From Oscillospiraceae bacterium (GTDB lineage Bacteria > Bacillota > Clostridia > Oscillospirales > Oscillospiraceae), in contig CACYYN010000032.1 in assembly GCA_902778665.1 (NCBI GenBank), positions 1 through 39,512 on the forward strand: a stretch of 39,512 bases of DNA. Reading direction: 5' to 3'. Shown here in pieces: positions 139 through 36,850 of this stretch. The notes beneath the pieces are model-generated. The model searched no databases, had not been told where the DNA came from, and worked only from the letters and a program-made list of their open reading frames with translations. The first letter of the stretch is position 1. Each line of letters starts with the position of its first letter. A program made the position numbers and the translations under genes.

Positions 139-191
139 AAAAGCAGAGACTGTTTCGCCGACAACGGTGGAGCAGTCTCTGCTTTTCTCTA
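139..191 (+). terminator. Intrinsic terminator of a gene upstream of the window
   Basis: A 14-bp perfect inverted repeat (AAAAGCAGAGACTG at 139-152 and its complement at 173-186) flanks a 20-nt loop and runs into a T-rich tail. It separates whatever lies upstream of the window from the small gene at 343. Bases 1-138 hold no gene I can support. Confidence 0.75.
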
Positions 192-226: not shown

Positions 227-262
227 TGTGACAGTAGTGTGATGGAGGCCGTGCTATACTGT
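227..262 (+). promoter_or_regulatory. Extended -10 promoter preceded by two tandem 11-bp TGTGA repeats
   Basis: An extended -10 (TGC then TATACT at 255-260) has no recognisable -35 hexamer. Instead two head-to-tail 11-bp units, TGTGACAGTAG (227-237) and TGTGATGGAGG (238-248), fill the -21 to -42 zone, with 3 bp between the second unit and the TGC. The promoter of the peptide gene at 36603-36785 has the same layout, down to the string TGCTATACTGT. This suggests a shared activator; the regulator is not identified. Confidence 0.6.
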
Positions 263-342
263 GCCCGTACTCAAGAGAAAAACAAATCAGCCCAAAGGGC
301 TGAAGAAAAAAATAAATGAAAAAAGAAAAGGAGAAAACAAAA

Positions 343-735
343 ATGTTCAAGACTGTTCTTACTTATTTCGCTGCAAAGAAGGTTATCACCTGTGTTGTCC
401 TGGCCGCAATGCTGATCGGTGTTATGGCTGTTGCATGTGTGGCAGCGGTGTTTGCACCGAAGGCTTCCGCTGAGGAGATGAATCCGTACGCCGGCAAGAC
501 CTTTGAGATGTACGATGCCAAAGTCGGCACCTACCAGCTCACCGTGACGGATGACGGGAAAGCCCTGGTCAAGTTCCCGGACAATGCTCGTGTCGGTTAC
601 TACTATGATGCCTACGTCGGAGACAACGGAGAGCTGCTCGTGGTAGACGGTAACAACACCGTGTTCTCCGCATCCATGAATGACAACGGCACCCTTTCCG
701 ATTACGACGGTGCCACATGGTTTGAGTGTGACTGA
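343..735 (+). CDS. Small exported or membrane-anchored protein of unknown function
   Basis: This 130-residue protein starts MFKTVLTYFAAKK, followed by a long hydrophobic stretch (about residues 14-38) and FAPKASA-EE, which looks like a type I signal-peptidase site. The remaining ~85 residues are acidic, rich in Gly, Asp, Asn and Tyr, and look like a small extracytoplasmic beta-type domain (GKTFEMYDAKVGTYQLTV... VVDGNNTVF). No cysteine remains after the predicted cleavage site except at the extreme C-terminus (WFECD). The ATG at 343 is preferred because AAAAGGAG lies about 10 nt before it; an in-frame ATG at 316 lacks a ribosome site. A 7-bp hairpin (TCAGCCC/GGGCTGA, 287-303) lies in the leader, and a strong terminator follows at 846-891. 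I do not recognise the family; expression and export look likely. Confidence 0.7.
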   Translation: MFKTVLTYFAAKKVITCVVLAAMLIGVMAVACVAAVFAPKASAEEMNPYAGKTFEMYDAKVGTYQLTVTDDGKALVKFPDNARVGYYYDAYVGDNGELLVVDGNNTVFSASMNDNGTLSDYDGATWFECD

Positions 736-5672: not shown

Positions 5673-6404
5673 ATGTGGTGGAGTAATCTTTTTAAAAACC
5701 TATCTCCTGCATCCTTTTTTAACTTCTCCTTCCTGCCCAAGTACGGGTCCTATTTCTGGAAGGGGATCGCTTATACACTTCTGCTGGCGGTTGTTTCGGT
5801 TCTTCTGGCTATTATCCCCGCCCTCCTGCTTGCCATGATGCGGCTGAGCAAGAATAAGGTGGTAAAAGGGCTGTCCGGCGCCTACATTGCCGTGTTCCGG
5901 TCCACACCGCTGCTGGTGCAGCTGAGCATCATCTATTTCGGCCTGTTCGGCGCTGTCAGCATTCCGCGTATCACGGTTCTGGGCTTTGTGGATATCAGCA
6001 GGTTCATCCCGGGTGTCGTGGCCCTGGCGCTGAACAGCTCGGCCTATGTGGCGGAGATTTTTCGCGGCGGTATTCTGGCCGTGGATATCGGACAGACGGA
6101 GGCCTCCCGTTCTCTCGGTCTCAACGCCTGGTCCACCATGCGCCTTGTGGTGCTGCCCCAGGCAATCAAAAATGTGCTGCCGGCTCTGGCAAATGAGATT
6201 ATCACCATGGTGAAGGAATCCTCCATCTGCTCCATGCTGGGCATGGTGGAGCTGATGTTTGCAGCGAAGACGGTTGCCTCCACAACCTATATCTCCCTCG
6301 GACCCTATGTTGTGGCGGCGGTGATTTATTTCTGCATCAACTATCCCGCTTCCAAGGGAATTGAAGCGATTGAAAGGAGGATGCGTCGTGGCGACAAACA
6401 ATGA
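5673..6404 (+). CDS. Polar amino-acid ABC transporter, permease
   Basis: This 243-residue inner-membrane permease of the His/Glu/Gln/Arg type has about five hydrophobic segments and the cytoplasmic EAA-type loop [55 protein letters not shown], which docks the ATPase. AAAGGA precedes the ATG. Its C-terminus ([10 protein letters not shown]) is encoded by the same bases that carry the ribosome site and start of the ATPase gene. It is probably a homodimer working with the products of 4764 and 6388. Confidence 0.93.
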
Positions 6405-21369: not shown

Positions 21370-22053
21370 ATGAGTAAAAGGGCACTTGTTGTTGAAGATG
21401 ATGCCAATATTGCCGAGCTTCTCCGGCTTTATCTGGGGAAGGACGGTTTTGAGGTTATGATTACCGGTGACGGATCCAGGGCAGAATCATCCTTCGACCT
21501 GTTCACGCCGGATGTGGTACTGCTGGATATCATGCTCCCCGGGAAGGACGGCTGGACCATCTGCCGGGATATCCGCAAAAAGTCCTCGGTTCCTATCATT
21601 ATGCTGACGGCAAAGGGGGAGACCAGTGACAAAATCAACGGTCTGGAGATCGGAGCAGATGACTATGTCACCAAGCCCTTTGATGTGAAGGAGCTTCTGG
21701 CCAGAATTCATGCGGTTATGCGTCGCACGGAAGCTGACGGCTCCATGGAAAAGAAGCTCACCTTTGATAAGCTGACCATTAATCTCGACTCCTATGAATT
21801 GATTGTGGACGGAAAGAAGGTAGACTGTCCGCCGAAGGAGATGGAGCTTCTTTATCATCTCGCCTCATCTCCGAACCGGGTGTTTACCCGAAACCAGCTT
21901 TTGGATGAGGTCTGGGGTTTTGATTATTTCGGTGATTCCCGTACGGTTGACGTCCACGTCAAACGCCTTCGTGAGAAACTGGAGGGTGTGTCGGATCAGT
22001 GGAGCCTGAAGACCGTCTGGGGCGTAGGCTACAAGTTCGAAGTGGCTGAATAA
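21370..22053 (+). CDS. OmpR/PhoB-family response regulator
   Basis: This 227-residue protein has a receiver domain at residues 1-120 with the acidic pair E9/D10-D11, phospho-acceptor D53 in VVLLDIMLPGKDG, and the LTAKGE lysine. A C-terminal winged-helix DNA-binding domain follows (PKEMELLYHLASSPNRVFTRNQLLDEVWGFDYFGDSRTVDVHVKRLREKL). AAAGGAG precedes the ATG. Its partner kinase follows, but a strong terminator and a new promoter lie between them. Confidence 0.95.
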   Translation: MSKRALVVEDDANIAELLRLYLGKDGFEVMITGDGSRAESSFDLFTPDVVLLDIMLPGKDGWTICRDIRKKSSVPIIMLTAKGETSDKINGLEIGADDYVTKPFDVKELLARIHAVMRRTEADGSMEKKLTFDKLTINLDSYELIVDGKKVDCPPKEMELLYHLASSPNRVFTRNQLLDEVWGFDYFGDSRTVDVHVKRLREKLEGVSDQWSLKTVWGVGYKFEVAE

Positions 22054-22062
22054 ATACATCTT

Positions 22063-22105
22063 CATGCGTCAGATGTCCTCTTCGACATCCGACGCATGAT
22101 TTTTG
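22063..22105 (+). terminator. Terminator between response regulator and histidine kinase
   Basis: CATGCGTCAGATGTC (22063-22077) pairs with GACATCCGACGCATG (22084-22098), 15 positions with one mismatch, a 6-nt loop and ATTTTTG after it. Confidence 0.8.
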
Positions 22106-22134
22106 TTGAAAAGAAACCCAGCGTGGGTTATAAT
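22106..22134 (+). promoter_or_regulatory. Promoter of the histidine kinase gene
   Basis: TTGAAA (22106-22111), a 17-bp spacer and TATAAT (22129-22134), starting immediately after the terminator. The spacer contains an inverted repeat, ACCC-AGCGT-GGGT. Confidence 0.7.
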
Positions 22135-22159
22135 ACGTCATTATGCAACGAAATGAAAG

Positions 22160-23602
22160 ATGTTATCGTGTGATATGAAAAGCATTTATCTGCGTAATTT
22201 TATAGCAACGGCGGCAATGATCGGCCTCGGATTGCTTTTGGTTGCAGTCTCCATTTTTCTGATCGGACGCAGCTACATCATTGAGGATTACAGGGCAAAT
22301 ATGATCAGCAGTGCCCAGGAAGTGGCGCATACGGCGTCTGCCGTGGCAGAGAAGGACTCTCTCAACAGTTGGCTTCTGCGCATGATTCTCTCTTCCATCT
22401 CCAAGGCTACCGGCAATCACATCATGATCACGGATTCAGACGGCATGGTTGTGTCCTGCTGTGATGAGCTGCCGATCTGCAGCCATATGGGCAGAGTGCT
22501 GCCGGAGGATATTGTCATTGCTGTGAATACCACCGGCGGATATCAGGGCAGGCTGCTGGTTTCCGGCTTTTTCGGCGAAGAGAGAATACTGGTTGCAGAG
22601 CCGATTCCCGGAGAATCGGAGGACACCATCGGCTTTGTGGTGGTCAGTATCCAGCAGCGGAACATTTTCTCTTCCTGGAAGACGCTGCTTTTTGCCATGC
22701 TTCTGATTTCCGGCCTGGTTTTTGCGGCCATCCTGATTTTTGCCTTTGTCTACTCCAAGCGTATGGCCAGGCCCCTTGATGAAATAGCAGAGGCATCCCG
22801 TTCTTTTGCGAGGGGAGACTTTTCACCCCGTGTTCGGCAGAACACCGACACGTCCTATGAAATGGGGGCCCTGATCGATTCCTTTAACAAAATGGCAGAC
22901 TCGCTGGAGAATGCGGAAAAACGACGCACTGAATTTATCTCCAATGTCTCCCATGAACTGAGAACTCCCATGACTACCATTTCCGGTTTTGCCGACGGAA
23001 TTCTGGACGGGACCATCCCCAAGGAAGAGGAAGAGAAGTATCTCCGTTCCATCCGGGACGAGACCAGACGGCTTTCCCGCCTTGTTCGCAATATGCTGGA
23101 TGCCTCCAAAATGAAGGCCATGGCATCCGACCCCAAGCGCCGCACCGATTTTGACCTGACGGAGCTCTGCCTGCAGACACTTCTCAGTTTTGAAAGCCGG
23201 GCTACGGCAAAGCATCTGGATGTGGATCCCCAGTTTCCGGATAACCGGGTGATGGTCCATGCAGATCAGGACGGAATTACCCAGGTCATCTATAACCTGC
23301 TGGATAATGCGGTGAAGTTTGCCCGGGAGGGCAGCTGCATCACGATCCGCCTGTATATCGAAGATAAAAAAGCCTATGTCTCCGTCCGGGATGAAGGGGA
23401 GACCATCCCTCCCGATGACCTGCCTTATATCTTTGACCGGTTTCATAAATCTGACCGTTCCCGTTCTTTGGATAAAGACGGTGTCGGGCTGGGCCTCTAT
23501 CTTGTCAAGACCATCATCAACAGCCACGATGAGGACATTGCTGTCAAGAGTGAGGGCGGAATGACGGAATTTGTCTTTACGCTTCCTCTGGCAGAAGCCT
23601 GA
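22160..23602 (+). CDS. Sensor histidine kinase
   Basis: This 480-residue membrane kinase has two transmembrane segments (about residues 14-36 and 176-198) framing an extracytoplasmic sensor region of about 140 residues with CCDELPICSHMG. A HAMP-like segment follows (SKRMARPLDEIAEASRSFARGDFSPRV), then the HisKA box with H265 in FISNVSHELRTPMTTISGFADGILDG, and the ATPase domain with NLLDNAVKFA, a diverged G1 box (VRDEGETIP) and GVGLGLYLVKTI. It presumably phosphorylates the regulator encoded just upstream; the signal is unknown. Start choice between 22160 and 22175 is uncertain because neither has a strong ribosome site. It is likely co-transcribed with the HtrA gene, hinting at an envelope-stress role. 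Confidence 0.93.
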   Translation: MLSCDMKSIYLRNFIATAAMIGLGLLLVAVSIFLIGRSYIIEDYRANMISSAQEVAHTASAVAEKDSLNSWLLRMILSSISKATGNHIMITDSDGMVVSCCDELPICSHMGRVLPEDIVIAVNTTGGYQGRLLVSGFFGEERILVAEPIPGESEDTIGFVVVSIQQRNIFSSWKTLLFAMLLISGLVFAAILIFAFVYSKRMARPLDEIAEASRSFARGDFSPRVRQNTDTSYEMGALIDSFNKMADSLENAEKRRTEFISNVSHELRTPMTTISGFADGILDGTIPKEEEEKYLRSIRDETRRLSRLVRNMLDASKMKAMASDPKRRTDFDLTELCLQTLLSFESRATAKHLDVDPQFPDNRVMVHADQDGITQVIYNLLDNAVKFAREGSCITIRLYIEDKKAYVSVRDEGETIPPDDLPYIFDRFHKSDRSRSLDKDGVGLGLYLVKTIINSHDEDIAVKSEGGMTEFVFTLPLAEA

Positions 23603-23647
23603 TCCGCTTTTTCCCATCTATCAATCTCACCTACGGAGCTTGAACGT

Positions 23648-24961
23648 ATGAATAATAACTGGTACACCCCCAACTATACCCCGGAGGAAGACTGGTATGC
23701 CCCGCTGCAGCCTGTGTCTTCCGTTTCCGTATCATCAGCAGAGGATGACAGCAGACTGCTGCGGAGGAAGAAGACAACACGCATCATCGCATTCATCCTC
23801 ATTATCGCCCTGCTGGCCTCCACCTTTGCCTATACCGTCATTCCACGTGGGGGCAGAGCCCGGCCTGTCATCGGATCGGGGGACTGGACTGAAAGCGAGG
23901 AGCAGGAGGAGTTTCCCGAGCAGTTCGGTGATTTCTTCAGTCAGTACTACACTTCCACCGAGAATGAGAAAGTGGATGTCCGTATCCCGGACGAGACGGA
24001 AGACCTTCGTTTTGAACTCTCTCTCGCTCAGAGTGCAGGGGAGGATCTCACTCTGCAGGAGATCTACAAAAGGTGCTCCGGTTCGATTGTCGCCATAGCC
24101 GGCTATACGGACGGAATGAGCGGTTATAACTGGGGTACGGGTGTGGTTCTGAGCAGCGACGGCCTGATCCTCACCAACACACATGTGATTGACGGCTGTG
24201 ACAGTGCCGAAGTTGTTATCGATGATACCGACCGGTATAAAGCTTCTCTGGTCGGGGCTGATGCGATCAGTGACCTCGCCGTTCTGAAGATTGATGCAGA
24301 GGGTCTGGCGTGTGCGGAGTTTGGTGACAGTACGGTCCTTTCTGTGGGAGACCGGGTGGCTGCCATCGGCAATCCTCTCGGAGATGAGTTTACCAGAACC
24401 CTGACTGACGGTATCATCTCCGCCATCGACCGTGATATCTCCTATAACGGCCGTAATATGACCCTCATCCAGACCAATGCCGCCCTCAATGAGGGCAATT
24501 CCGGCGGAGCTCTTTTCAACATGCACGGTCAGGTAATCGGCATCACCAATATGAAGATGATGTCCTCCCTCTCCAGTATTGAAGGGATCGGTTTTGCCAT
24601 TCCGTCCTCCACGGTGCAGAAGGTTACGGCTTCTCTGGTGAAGTATGGTGAGGTGAAAGGCAGGCCCTCCATCGGCATCACGGTGGGGCAGATCCCGACC
24701 AATGCTATGGAGCATTACAGTATGCCGGAAGGGCTCTATGTTGCCGCAGTCTCCGAAGGCTCTGATGCCGAAAAACAGGGCATCCGTGTCGGCGACGTGA
24801 TCACAGCCGTGGAAGGACAGAACGTCACCACTACCGAGGAGGTTGTTGCCATCAAGGATGCCCATGCGGTAGGCGACAGGCTGACCTTCTCGATCTGGCG
24901 TCCCGAAGAAACTCTTGAGATCACCATCACCCTTATGGACACCAATGATATTTACGGATAA
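23648..24961 (+). CDS. HtrA/DegP-like membrane-anchored serine protease
   Basis: This 437-residue protein is membrane-tethered with no cleavable signal: a ~40-residue cytoplasmic tail rich in Tyr, Pro and Ser, one transmembrane helix at about residues 45-64, an acidic linker, a trypsin-like domain, and a C-terminal PDZ domain. The catalytic triad is H179 (NTHVIDG), D209 (ISDLAVLKID) and S285 (NEGNSGGALF). PDZ residues GLYVAAVSEGSDAEKQGIRVGDVITAVEGQNV are clear. It degrades misfolded exported proteins. It follows the kinase by 45 nt, a common association for envelope-stress systems. Confidence 0.94.
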   Translation: MNNNWYTPNYTPEEDWYAPLQPVSSVSVSSAEDDSRLLRRKKTTRIIAFILIIALLASTFAYTVIPRGGRARPVIGSGDWTESEEQEEFPEQFGDFFSQYYTSTENEKVDVRIPDETEDLRFELSLAQSAGEDLTLQEIYKRCSGSIVAIAGYTDGMSGYNWGTGVVLSSDGLILTNTHVIDGCDSAEVVIDDTDRYKASLVGADAISDLAVLKIDAEGLACAEFGDSTVLSVGDRVAAIGNPLGDEFTRTLTDGIISAIDRDISYNGRNMTLIQTNAALNEGNSGGALFNMHGQVIGITNMKMMSSLSSIEGIGFAIPSSTVQKVTASLVKYGEVKGRPSIGITVGQIPTNAMEHYSMPEGLYVAAVSEGSDAEKQGIRVGDVITAVEGQNVTTTEEVVAIKDAHAVGDRLTFSIWRPEETLEITITLMDTNDIYG

Positions 24962-36602: not shown

Positions 36603-36785
36603 TTATACCATGTCTTTGGGGGAGAGAGGGGGTTCAGGCATTTCTATTTTTGACTCCTCATCAGGTTCCTTTTTCGGTTTCACAATGCCTGAAACATGCG
36701 GGGGGAAGACCGTTCCGCCGTTTACCTTGCTGAGATCCTCATCGGTCCGGGCAACGGGTTCGTCGCGTTTGTCAGTCGTGCTCAT
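36603..36785 (-). CDS. Small peptide with a double-glycine-type leader
   Basis: This 60-residue peptide begins with 24 residues, MSTTDKRDEPVARTDEDLSKVNGG, that fit a double-glycine export leader: GG at -2/-1, Val at -4, Leu at -7 and an acidic residue at -8. The remaining 36 residues (TVFPPHVSGIVKPKKEPDEESKIEMPEPPLSPKDMV) have no Cys and are rich in Pro, Lys and Glu, unlike a typical pore-forming bacteriocin, so a signalling or unknown role is possible. AAAGGAG lies 7 nt before the ATG. The gene has its own promoter with tandem repeats and its own terminator, so it is a compact single-gene unit. No peptidase-containing ABC exporter is in the window. The leader call is from pattern only. Confidence 0.65.
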   Translation of the reverse strand: MSTTDKRDEPVARTDEDLSKVNGGTVFPPHVSGIVKPKKEPDEESKIEMPEPPLSPKDMV

Positions 36786-36814: not shown

Positions 36815-36850
36815 ACAGTATAGCATGTGAAGTATCACAGATTCATCACA
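36815..36850 (-). promoter_or_regulatory. Extended -10 promoter with two tandem 11-bp TGTGA repeats
   Basis: On the minus strand, TGTGATGAATC (36850-36840) and TGTGATACTTC (36839-36829) are followed after 3 bp by TGC and TATACT (36822-36817), then GT. The layout and spacing equal those at 227-262. The second unit also belongs to a palindrome, TGTGA-N4-TCACA (36826-36839). There is no good -35 hexamer, so an activator is likely. Confidence 0.6.

Follow-up and report, generated by a model that had tools for sequence, protein, structure and literature searches.

A TGTGA direct-repeat promoter class for small exported proteins in Oscillospiraceae and an exporter-linked SARP-like protein as its candidate activator

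Two copies of an unusual promoter-like element, found in a 39,512-nt stretch of DNA (the window), very probably belong to a class of SARP-like regulon promoters that serve small exported proteins, with a regulator encoded beside a peptide exporter as the activator. A preliminary description of this DNA had noted the pair and taken it as a sign of a dedicated activator and of a small-peptide regulon not yet described. The genome-wide results bear out the regulon, no description of which appears among the matches listed from the open-access literature, and point to a candidate for the activator. The description did not see the SARP-like class of that activator, its NHLP-type exporter neighbour, or the fact that the regulon serves double-glycine and Sec-type products alike.

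Results

Both window sites, at 227-262 on the plus strand and 36850-36815 on the minus strand, match TGTGA-N6-TGTGAT-N8-TGCTATACT with 0 mismatches and thus have the same construction, as first described (Table 1). Also in line with the preliminary description, neither promoter has a −35 hexamer by eye and the window holds no third copy at up to 3 mismatches. When the pattern is relaxed and up to 4 mismatches are allowed, only two further places appear, both unconvincing, and 100 shuffles of the window gave a mean of 0.01 matches and no shuffle with two. Counted from the 3′ repeat, the TG of the extended −10 comes after 8 nt and TATACT after 11 nt. Across the 106 distinct strict sites of the DNA that was retrieved, a pyrimidine-purine step sits 6-7 bases past the −10, with C or T at the predicted −1 in 94% and A or G at the predicted +1 in 97%. 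As both window promoters have C followed by G at these positions, the conserved step gives the predicted transcription starts of Table 1, from which the repeats would span −40 to −30 and −29 to −19 and form a 22-bp box. Conservation extends outside the search pattern in the same 106 sites, the base after the first TGTGA being C or T in 99% and the next A or G in 91%, with T two and three bases further on in 85% and 68%, respectively, and a mildly A-rich stretch 13-16 bases upstream.

Table 1. Coordinates of the promoters, their genes and related features (window positions unless a locus is named)
Feature	Location	Strand	Remark
Upstream 11-bp direct repeat, promoter 1, TGTGACAGTAG	227..237	+	exact match; predicted −40 to −30
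Downstream 11-bp direct repeat, promoter 1, TGTGATGGAGG	238..248	+	exact match; predicted −29 to −19
Extended −10 TGC-TATACT, promoter 1	252..260	+	
Predicted transcription start, promoter 1 (G after C)	267	+	from conserved pyrimidine/purine step
130-aa exported-type protein	343..735	+	hydrophobic signal/anchor N-terminus (inspection)
OmpR-type response regulator, then histidine kinase, HtrA-like protease (last two by eye)	21370-24961		
60-aa double-glycine-leader peptide	36603..36785	-	24-residue leader ending LSKVNGG (by inspection)
Predicted transcription start, promoter 2 (G after C)	36810	-	inferred
Extended −10 TGC-TATACT, promoter 2	36817..36825	-	
Downstream 11-bp direct repeat, promoter 2, TGTGATACTTC	36829..36839	-	exact match
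Upstream 11-bp direct repeat, promoter 2, TGTGATGAATC	36840..36850	-	exact match
CTTTGGACAT-type direct repeats near SARP-like regulators	L297:14294, L299:9444, L312:9055, L124:2465		

Two inverted repeats accompany promoter 1. One, CAGCCC-AAA-GGGCTG (window 288-302), lies in what is predicted to be the 5′ leader of the secreted-protein gene; it is partly kept in several relatives (L001, L002, L010) and possibly forms an RNA hairpin. Upstream of the window cassette lies the terminator-like repeat GCAGAGACTG...CAGTCTCTGC with a T-rich end (window 143-186). Portions of it also precede the sites C33:57267 and C53:382, suggesting that promoter and gene were duplicated together with their flanks.

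The genome-wide search that the preliminary description had proposed as a check came out positive. The 2.73-Mb genome to which the window belongs (G000) has 22 matches at up to 3 mismatches, 11 of them exact, with small exported-protein genes among those behind them, and the reversed-pattern control has 0. The bare 17-mer TGTGAYN5TGTGAY occurs 22 times in the genome and once in its reversed control. The spacing is rigid, as 110 of 115 rows from 12 genomes show the 5/8 arrangement when 437 spacing combinations are permitted, and the 11-bp repeat period likewise holds in 110 of 115. Of the remaining five rows, one has 5/7 spacing, two read a proper site a second time and two appear to be unrelated. 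A motif scan of 15 genomes from other families in the order found no exact site.

On inspection the gene calls behind the two window promoters hold, and both would drive small exported-type products, as claimed before. The start at 343 was picked for its ribosome-binding site (the mechanical list of open reading frames has 316), and the part of this protein that follows the signal/anchor has no Pfam or NCBIfam match over cut-off. Its relatives stand behind the same promoter on C4, C7, C13 (site 64946), C33 (57267) and C53. The double-glycine peptide at 36603-36785 has no Pfam or NCBIfam match either. Among the genes linked to sites in the window's genome are a six-member signal-peptide family that includes the 343-735 product, another, two-member family of small signal-peptide proteins, and double-glycine-leader peptides. 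Three of these last have LysM or SH3-like parts (the SH3-like label being by eye). Two of the 22 sites, C18:66977 and C33:50617, have no convincing gene behind them.

For a wider count, the next gene was classified at those 103 distinct strict sites that lie in the DNA retrieved for the loci listed, leaving out duplicates and sites with less than 260 nt downstream. It encodes a double-glycine product at 56 sites, a signal/TM product at 29 and another product at 8, with none at 10; the corresponding numbers at 6000 random positions are 47, 222, 1190 and 4541. Among positions with a called gene, the excess of double-glycine products is large (56/93 against 47/1459 at random, p about 1e-48) and that of signal/TM products modest (29/93 against 222/1459, p 2e-4). 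The double-glycine pattern used here replaced an earlier, stricter one (2/103 sites, 15/4000 control positions) and was set after the first output, so that its weight rests on the random-position control scored by the same rule. Three of the 8 other genes carry a double-glycine leader or a signal by eye and are counted as other still. A crude LysM-like pattern matches 22 of the 56 double-glycine products, the LysM label resting on Pfam for one protein and on the crude pattern for the others, and many of these products therefore probably act at the cell surface. The leader families TIGR03793 and TIGR03798 gave no match at E<=0.01 in the three peptides tested (window:36603-36785, L022:3910-4116 and L143:12322-12702). 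One mature domain, 91% identical over 79 aa, is preceded by a double-glycine leader in its G000 copy (C26:31295) and by a Sec-type signal in that of another genome (G020). Both copies stand behind TGTGA repeats, the former with the weaker −10 TGTTAAAAT, and the sharing of this domain suggests one regulon with two export routes.

Several other features were seen near regulon sites. At L021:7184 (G000:C13:56683) a regulon promoter lies directly before a double-glycine frame without a start, followed by a thioredoxin-like gene, and a similar thioredoxin-like gene is also found behind the site at L039 in G024. The window segment 890-1186 is by eye a fragment like the C-terminus of a GIY-YIG-endonuclease-like protein, a longer relative of which occurs at L021:8555-9283 near other regulon sites. 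Proteins resembling, by eye, cyclic-nucleotide-binding, STAS-domain and PP2C proteins surround two regulon sites at L022:510-8000, a possible case of partner-switching control.

A family of receiver-plus-winged-helix proteins was reached through a sub-cut-off match adjoining two sites in G024. The candidate activator, a "type B" regulator at G000:C11:19548-20351, is encoded beside an NHLP-type peptide exporter. Its cluster comprises two ABC exporters together with a short HlyD-like protein and a protein of 163 aa that has no Pfam match over cut-off. The peptidase-ABC exporter, which includes a C39 peptidase domain, scores over the TIGR03796 cut-off (932.4 against 853.3 bits), the second ABC transporter falls under that of TIGR03797 (704.7 against 709.4 bits) and the HlyD-like protein under that of TIGR03794 (34.4 against 156.2 bits). 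Immediately upstream of the regulator gene, all 45 distinct loci examined encode a protein of about 163-171 aa (e.g., L142:12351-12842), as recognized by a short residue pattern. The window's genome has no site at up to 4 mismatches in the 20 kb around the regulator; by raw count at up to 3 mismatches, a site lies within 1.5 kb of it in 17 of the 45 loci. In UBA3762 a one-mismatch site directly precedes the partner gene and the regulator, an arrangement that would amount to autoregulation.

The receiver domain of the regulator is over cut-off (39.7 against 30.2 bits) and is degenerate. The phospho-acceptor Asp is present in 16 and the Lys in 15 of 28 aligned sequences, and the G000 protein has neither. 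This alignment comes from 30 fetched loci, of which L189 (a pattern miss) and L192 (whose frame runs on) were left out, and its mean column identity is 0.65 in the receiver and 0.90 in the effector domain. As the phosphorylated Asp is missing in 12 of the 28 species, another signal may control the TGTGAC-type regulator, and perhaps it passes through the adjacent protein of about 163-171 aa.

Presence of the regulator is sharply two-peaked among 102 genomes of the genus searched by tblastn, with G000 and 35 others, the latter at 61-73% identity, and otherwise nothing above 41% identity at E<=1e-30. The motif is found in 36 of 36 carriers and in 6 of 66 non-carriers (Fisher p about 1e-21, shared ancestry being ignored), which favours this protein as the dedicated activator. 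For 41 of these genomes the outcome was predicted before they were scanned. The motif appeared as predicted in 15 of 15 carriers and was absent as predicted from 22 of 26 non-carriers, the four against prediction being G085, G087, G088 and G092 (Fisher p 6e-8, again ignoring shared ancestry). The six genomes with the motif and without the regulator are G009 (5 sites, 65% complete), G074 (1 site), G085 (2 sites, 8% contamination), G087 (3 sites, 96% complete), G088 (9 sites) and G092 (1 site).

Beyond the genus, the regulator occurs at 58-67% identity in genomes whose titles name Pseudobutyrivibrio, Butyrivibrio or Lachnospiraceae, and in one whose title says no more than Clostridia. Nine further carrier genomes were chosen from 16 loci at >=58% identity, leaving out L227 and L229 (titled Lachnospiraceae), and eight of them have the motif at up to 1 mismatch, with 53 sites, 15 exact and 0 reversed. 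These eight, all from Lachnospiraceae-type genomes that were searched as regulator carriers, are the ones titled Lachnospiraceae, Pseudobutyrivibrio or Butyrivibrio. Two of them, G117 and G124, have one-mismatch matches only, and the carrier titled only Clostridia (G121) has no match.

Related SARP-like regulators coexist in many of these genomes, and one of them, a "type A" protein paired with a LytS-like kinase (by eye) in G024, could read the TGTGA repeats alone or jointly with the exporter-linked regulator. We regard this as unlikely. The type-A gene adjoins two sites in G024, and G087 has sites with only distant relatives (<=38% identity) of the exporter-linked regulator, one of them on the same contig about 2 kb or less from a site. 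However, in the motif-bearing genomes G000, G020 and G041 the best type-A match is the exporter-linked gene itself, at 31-33% identity, and where such a relative lies near a peptide gene in four genomes without the motif, that gene carries another kind of repeat.

The arrangement also resembles that of classical OmpR/PhoB-family response regulators, which recognize head-to-tail repeats with a period of about 11 bp and can stand in for a −35, as at the pho box or the WalR repeat TGTWAH-N5-TGTWAH. The 11-bp repeats in place of a −35 fit such a WalR- or PhoB-like protein, for instance the window's own (Table 1), and the G000 genome has six Trans_reg_C matches, five of them of response-regulator size. 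Against this, Trans_reg_C is over cut-off in 61 of 61 genus genomes searched, including 38 without the motif; the SARP-like regulator follows the motif and the presence of Trans_reg_C as a class does not. With such regulators present throughout the genus genomes searched, this family is left as a rival that appears quite improbable.

TGTGA is the half-site of CRP, and CRP sites are inverted repeats. The half-site, together with cyclic-nucleotide-binding-like proteins (by eye) near two sites on C30, would speak for a CRP-like reader; yet CRP sites are centred at −41.5 or −61.5 in the available text of one account (PMC10936776), and those here are centred at −29.5. CRP was set aside as highly improbable because the repeats are direct and wrongly positioned. 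It is just as improbable that the copies are a duplicated DNA cassette without a regulator, as flanks and paralogous genes are common to several G000 copies but the motif is also found before unrelated genes and, in other flanking sequence, in further genera.

By predicted fold, the effector domain of the exporter-linked regulator comes closest to AfsR and EmbR. A model of this domain, built from 56 of 74 distinct matching frames (the rest being domain-start pattern misses or near-duplicates), has a pLDDT of 89 and consists of a winged helix with a short tail of two helices, which is not a full BTA domain. Six PDB entries match the model at E<=0.001, all of them AfsR or EmbR and including AfsR-promoter complexes, and OmpR/PhoB-type domains come next at E 0.007 and worse. 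In a sequence-profile search of the PDB the response regulator 1p2f comes first by a small margin, followed by EmbR and AfsR, with E values of no more than 0.002 for all of them. Trans_reg_C (PF00486) scores 16.4 bits in the regulator, under the cut-off of 26.2, and BTAD (PF03704) is found in 0 of 56 members at E<=1. The Pfam rule for SARPs, as worded in the available part of its source (PF00486 plus PF03704; PMC10663231), thus does not take in the candidate, and SARP membership judged by sequence is weak.

Discussion

The promoter geometry and the predicted fold both argue for a SARP-like activator. In the available text on AfsR, SARPs are defined by direct repeats that follow one another at 11 or 22 bp and keep a constant distance to the −10, which is 8 bp counted from the 3′ repeat. 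The same text gives the AfsR box as 22 bp with two 11-bp repeats, centred at −29.5 with the upstream repeat at −40 to −30, and has sigma region 4 resting on two AfsR protomers (PMC10936776). The 11-bp period and the predicted 22-bp box from −40 to −19 found here agree with that repeat geometry, and as with the AfsR-type activators of Streptomyces the box would be centred over the −35 region. AfsR and its structural relative EmbR of Mycobacterium share with the predicted fold a winged helix followed by a helical tail. Unlike the SARPs, the protein described here is fused to a receiver, resides in Clostridia and has a short helical tail in place of the BTA domain; its promoters combine a TGTGAC repeat with an extended −10 and are scattered before exported-peptide genes and not gathered in an antibiotic cluster.

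In the proposed mechanism, two TGTGAC-type 11-bp direct repeats from −40 to −19 would replace the −35 at a fixed distance from the extended −10, and the activator is most likely the SARP-like response-regulator protein of the C11 cluster. By analogy with AfsR on the afs box, and judging from promoter geometry only, two protomers may occupy the repeats next to each other and hold on to sigma region 4. The cluster's C39-peptidase ABC transporter would then probably cleave the double-glycine peptides and export them, and the Sec-type small proteins would be a second cargo of the regulon.

The exporter side of this scheme resembles the NHLP/Nif11 export systems (TIGR03794, TIGR03796, TIGR03797), in which a peptidase-ABC protein adjoins a second ABC transporter, as in the regulator's cluster, and in which each genome has several cargo genes, as here. 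In contrast to those systems, the three cargo peptides tested here lie outside the NHLP/Nif11 leader families, and the cargo genes are dispersed through the genome under a common promoter. The word "promoter" is absent from the available text of the 2010 description of NHLP/Nif11 (PMC2887384). Among the matches listed from the open-access literature, none deals with this promoter or with a SARP-like exported-peptide regulator in Clostridia. Bacteriocin regulons under LytTR control (PlnC, BlpR) likewise have direct repeats upstream of double-glycine peptides. The LytTR repeats, however, are about two turns apart and are bound by a protein of another fold, whereas those described here are one turn apart and would be read by a winged helix.

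A second repeat code may exist alongside the TGTGA repeats. In four TGTGA-negative genomes (G045, G054, G066 and G078), CTTTGGACAT-type repeats precede a peptide gene near a SARP-like relative (Table 1). The repeats of each pair agree at 8 or 9 of 11 positions (three computed, G045 by eye) and lie ahead of a TGnTA −10, in the −40 to −19 slot that the TGTGA repeats also use. The peptide starts of G054 and G078 are identical, so that these two cases are not independent, and since the other peptide genes in the four loci have no CTTTGGACAT-type box, the second code is a lead and no rule. We consider it somewhat less than an even chance that gut and rumen Clostridia possess a family of SARP-like regulators, each with a private 11-bp repeat in one slot, of which TGTGAC is one and CTTTGGACAT a second. 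If true, a private repeat for each regulator would let several small-exported-peptide regulons run side by side.

The rigid 34-bp signature finds small exported peptides whatever their own sequence, which makes it useful for those Clostridia that are represented mainly by metagenome assemblies and in which genes of this kind resist annotation. With regulator, exporter, promoter and cargo named, the system can be tested in strains of Pseudobutyrivibrio and Butyrivibrio, which are presumably cultured, as their record titles carry no MAG label. If the exporter-linked regulator does activate these promoters, SARP-type activation would reach beyond the antibiotic clusters of Actinobacteria to a scattered regulon of exported proteins, a new use of a kind of switch known from the antibiotic pathways of Streptomyces.
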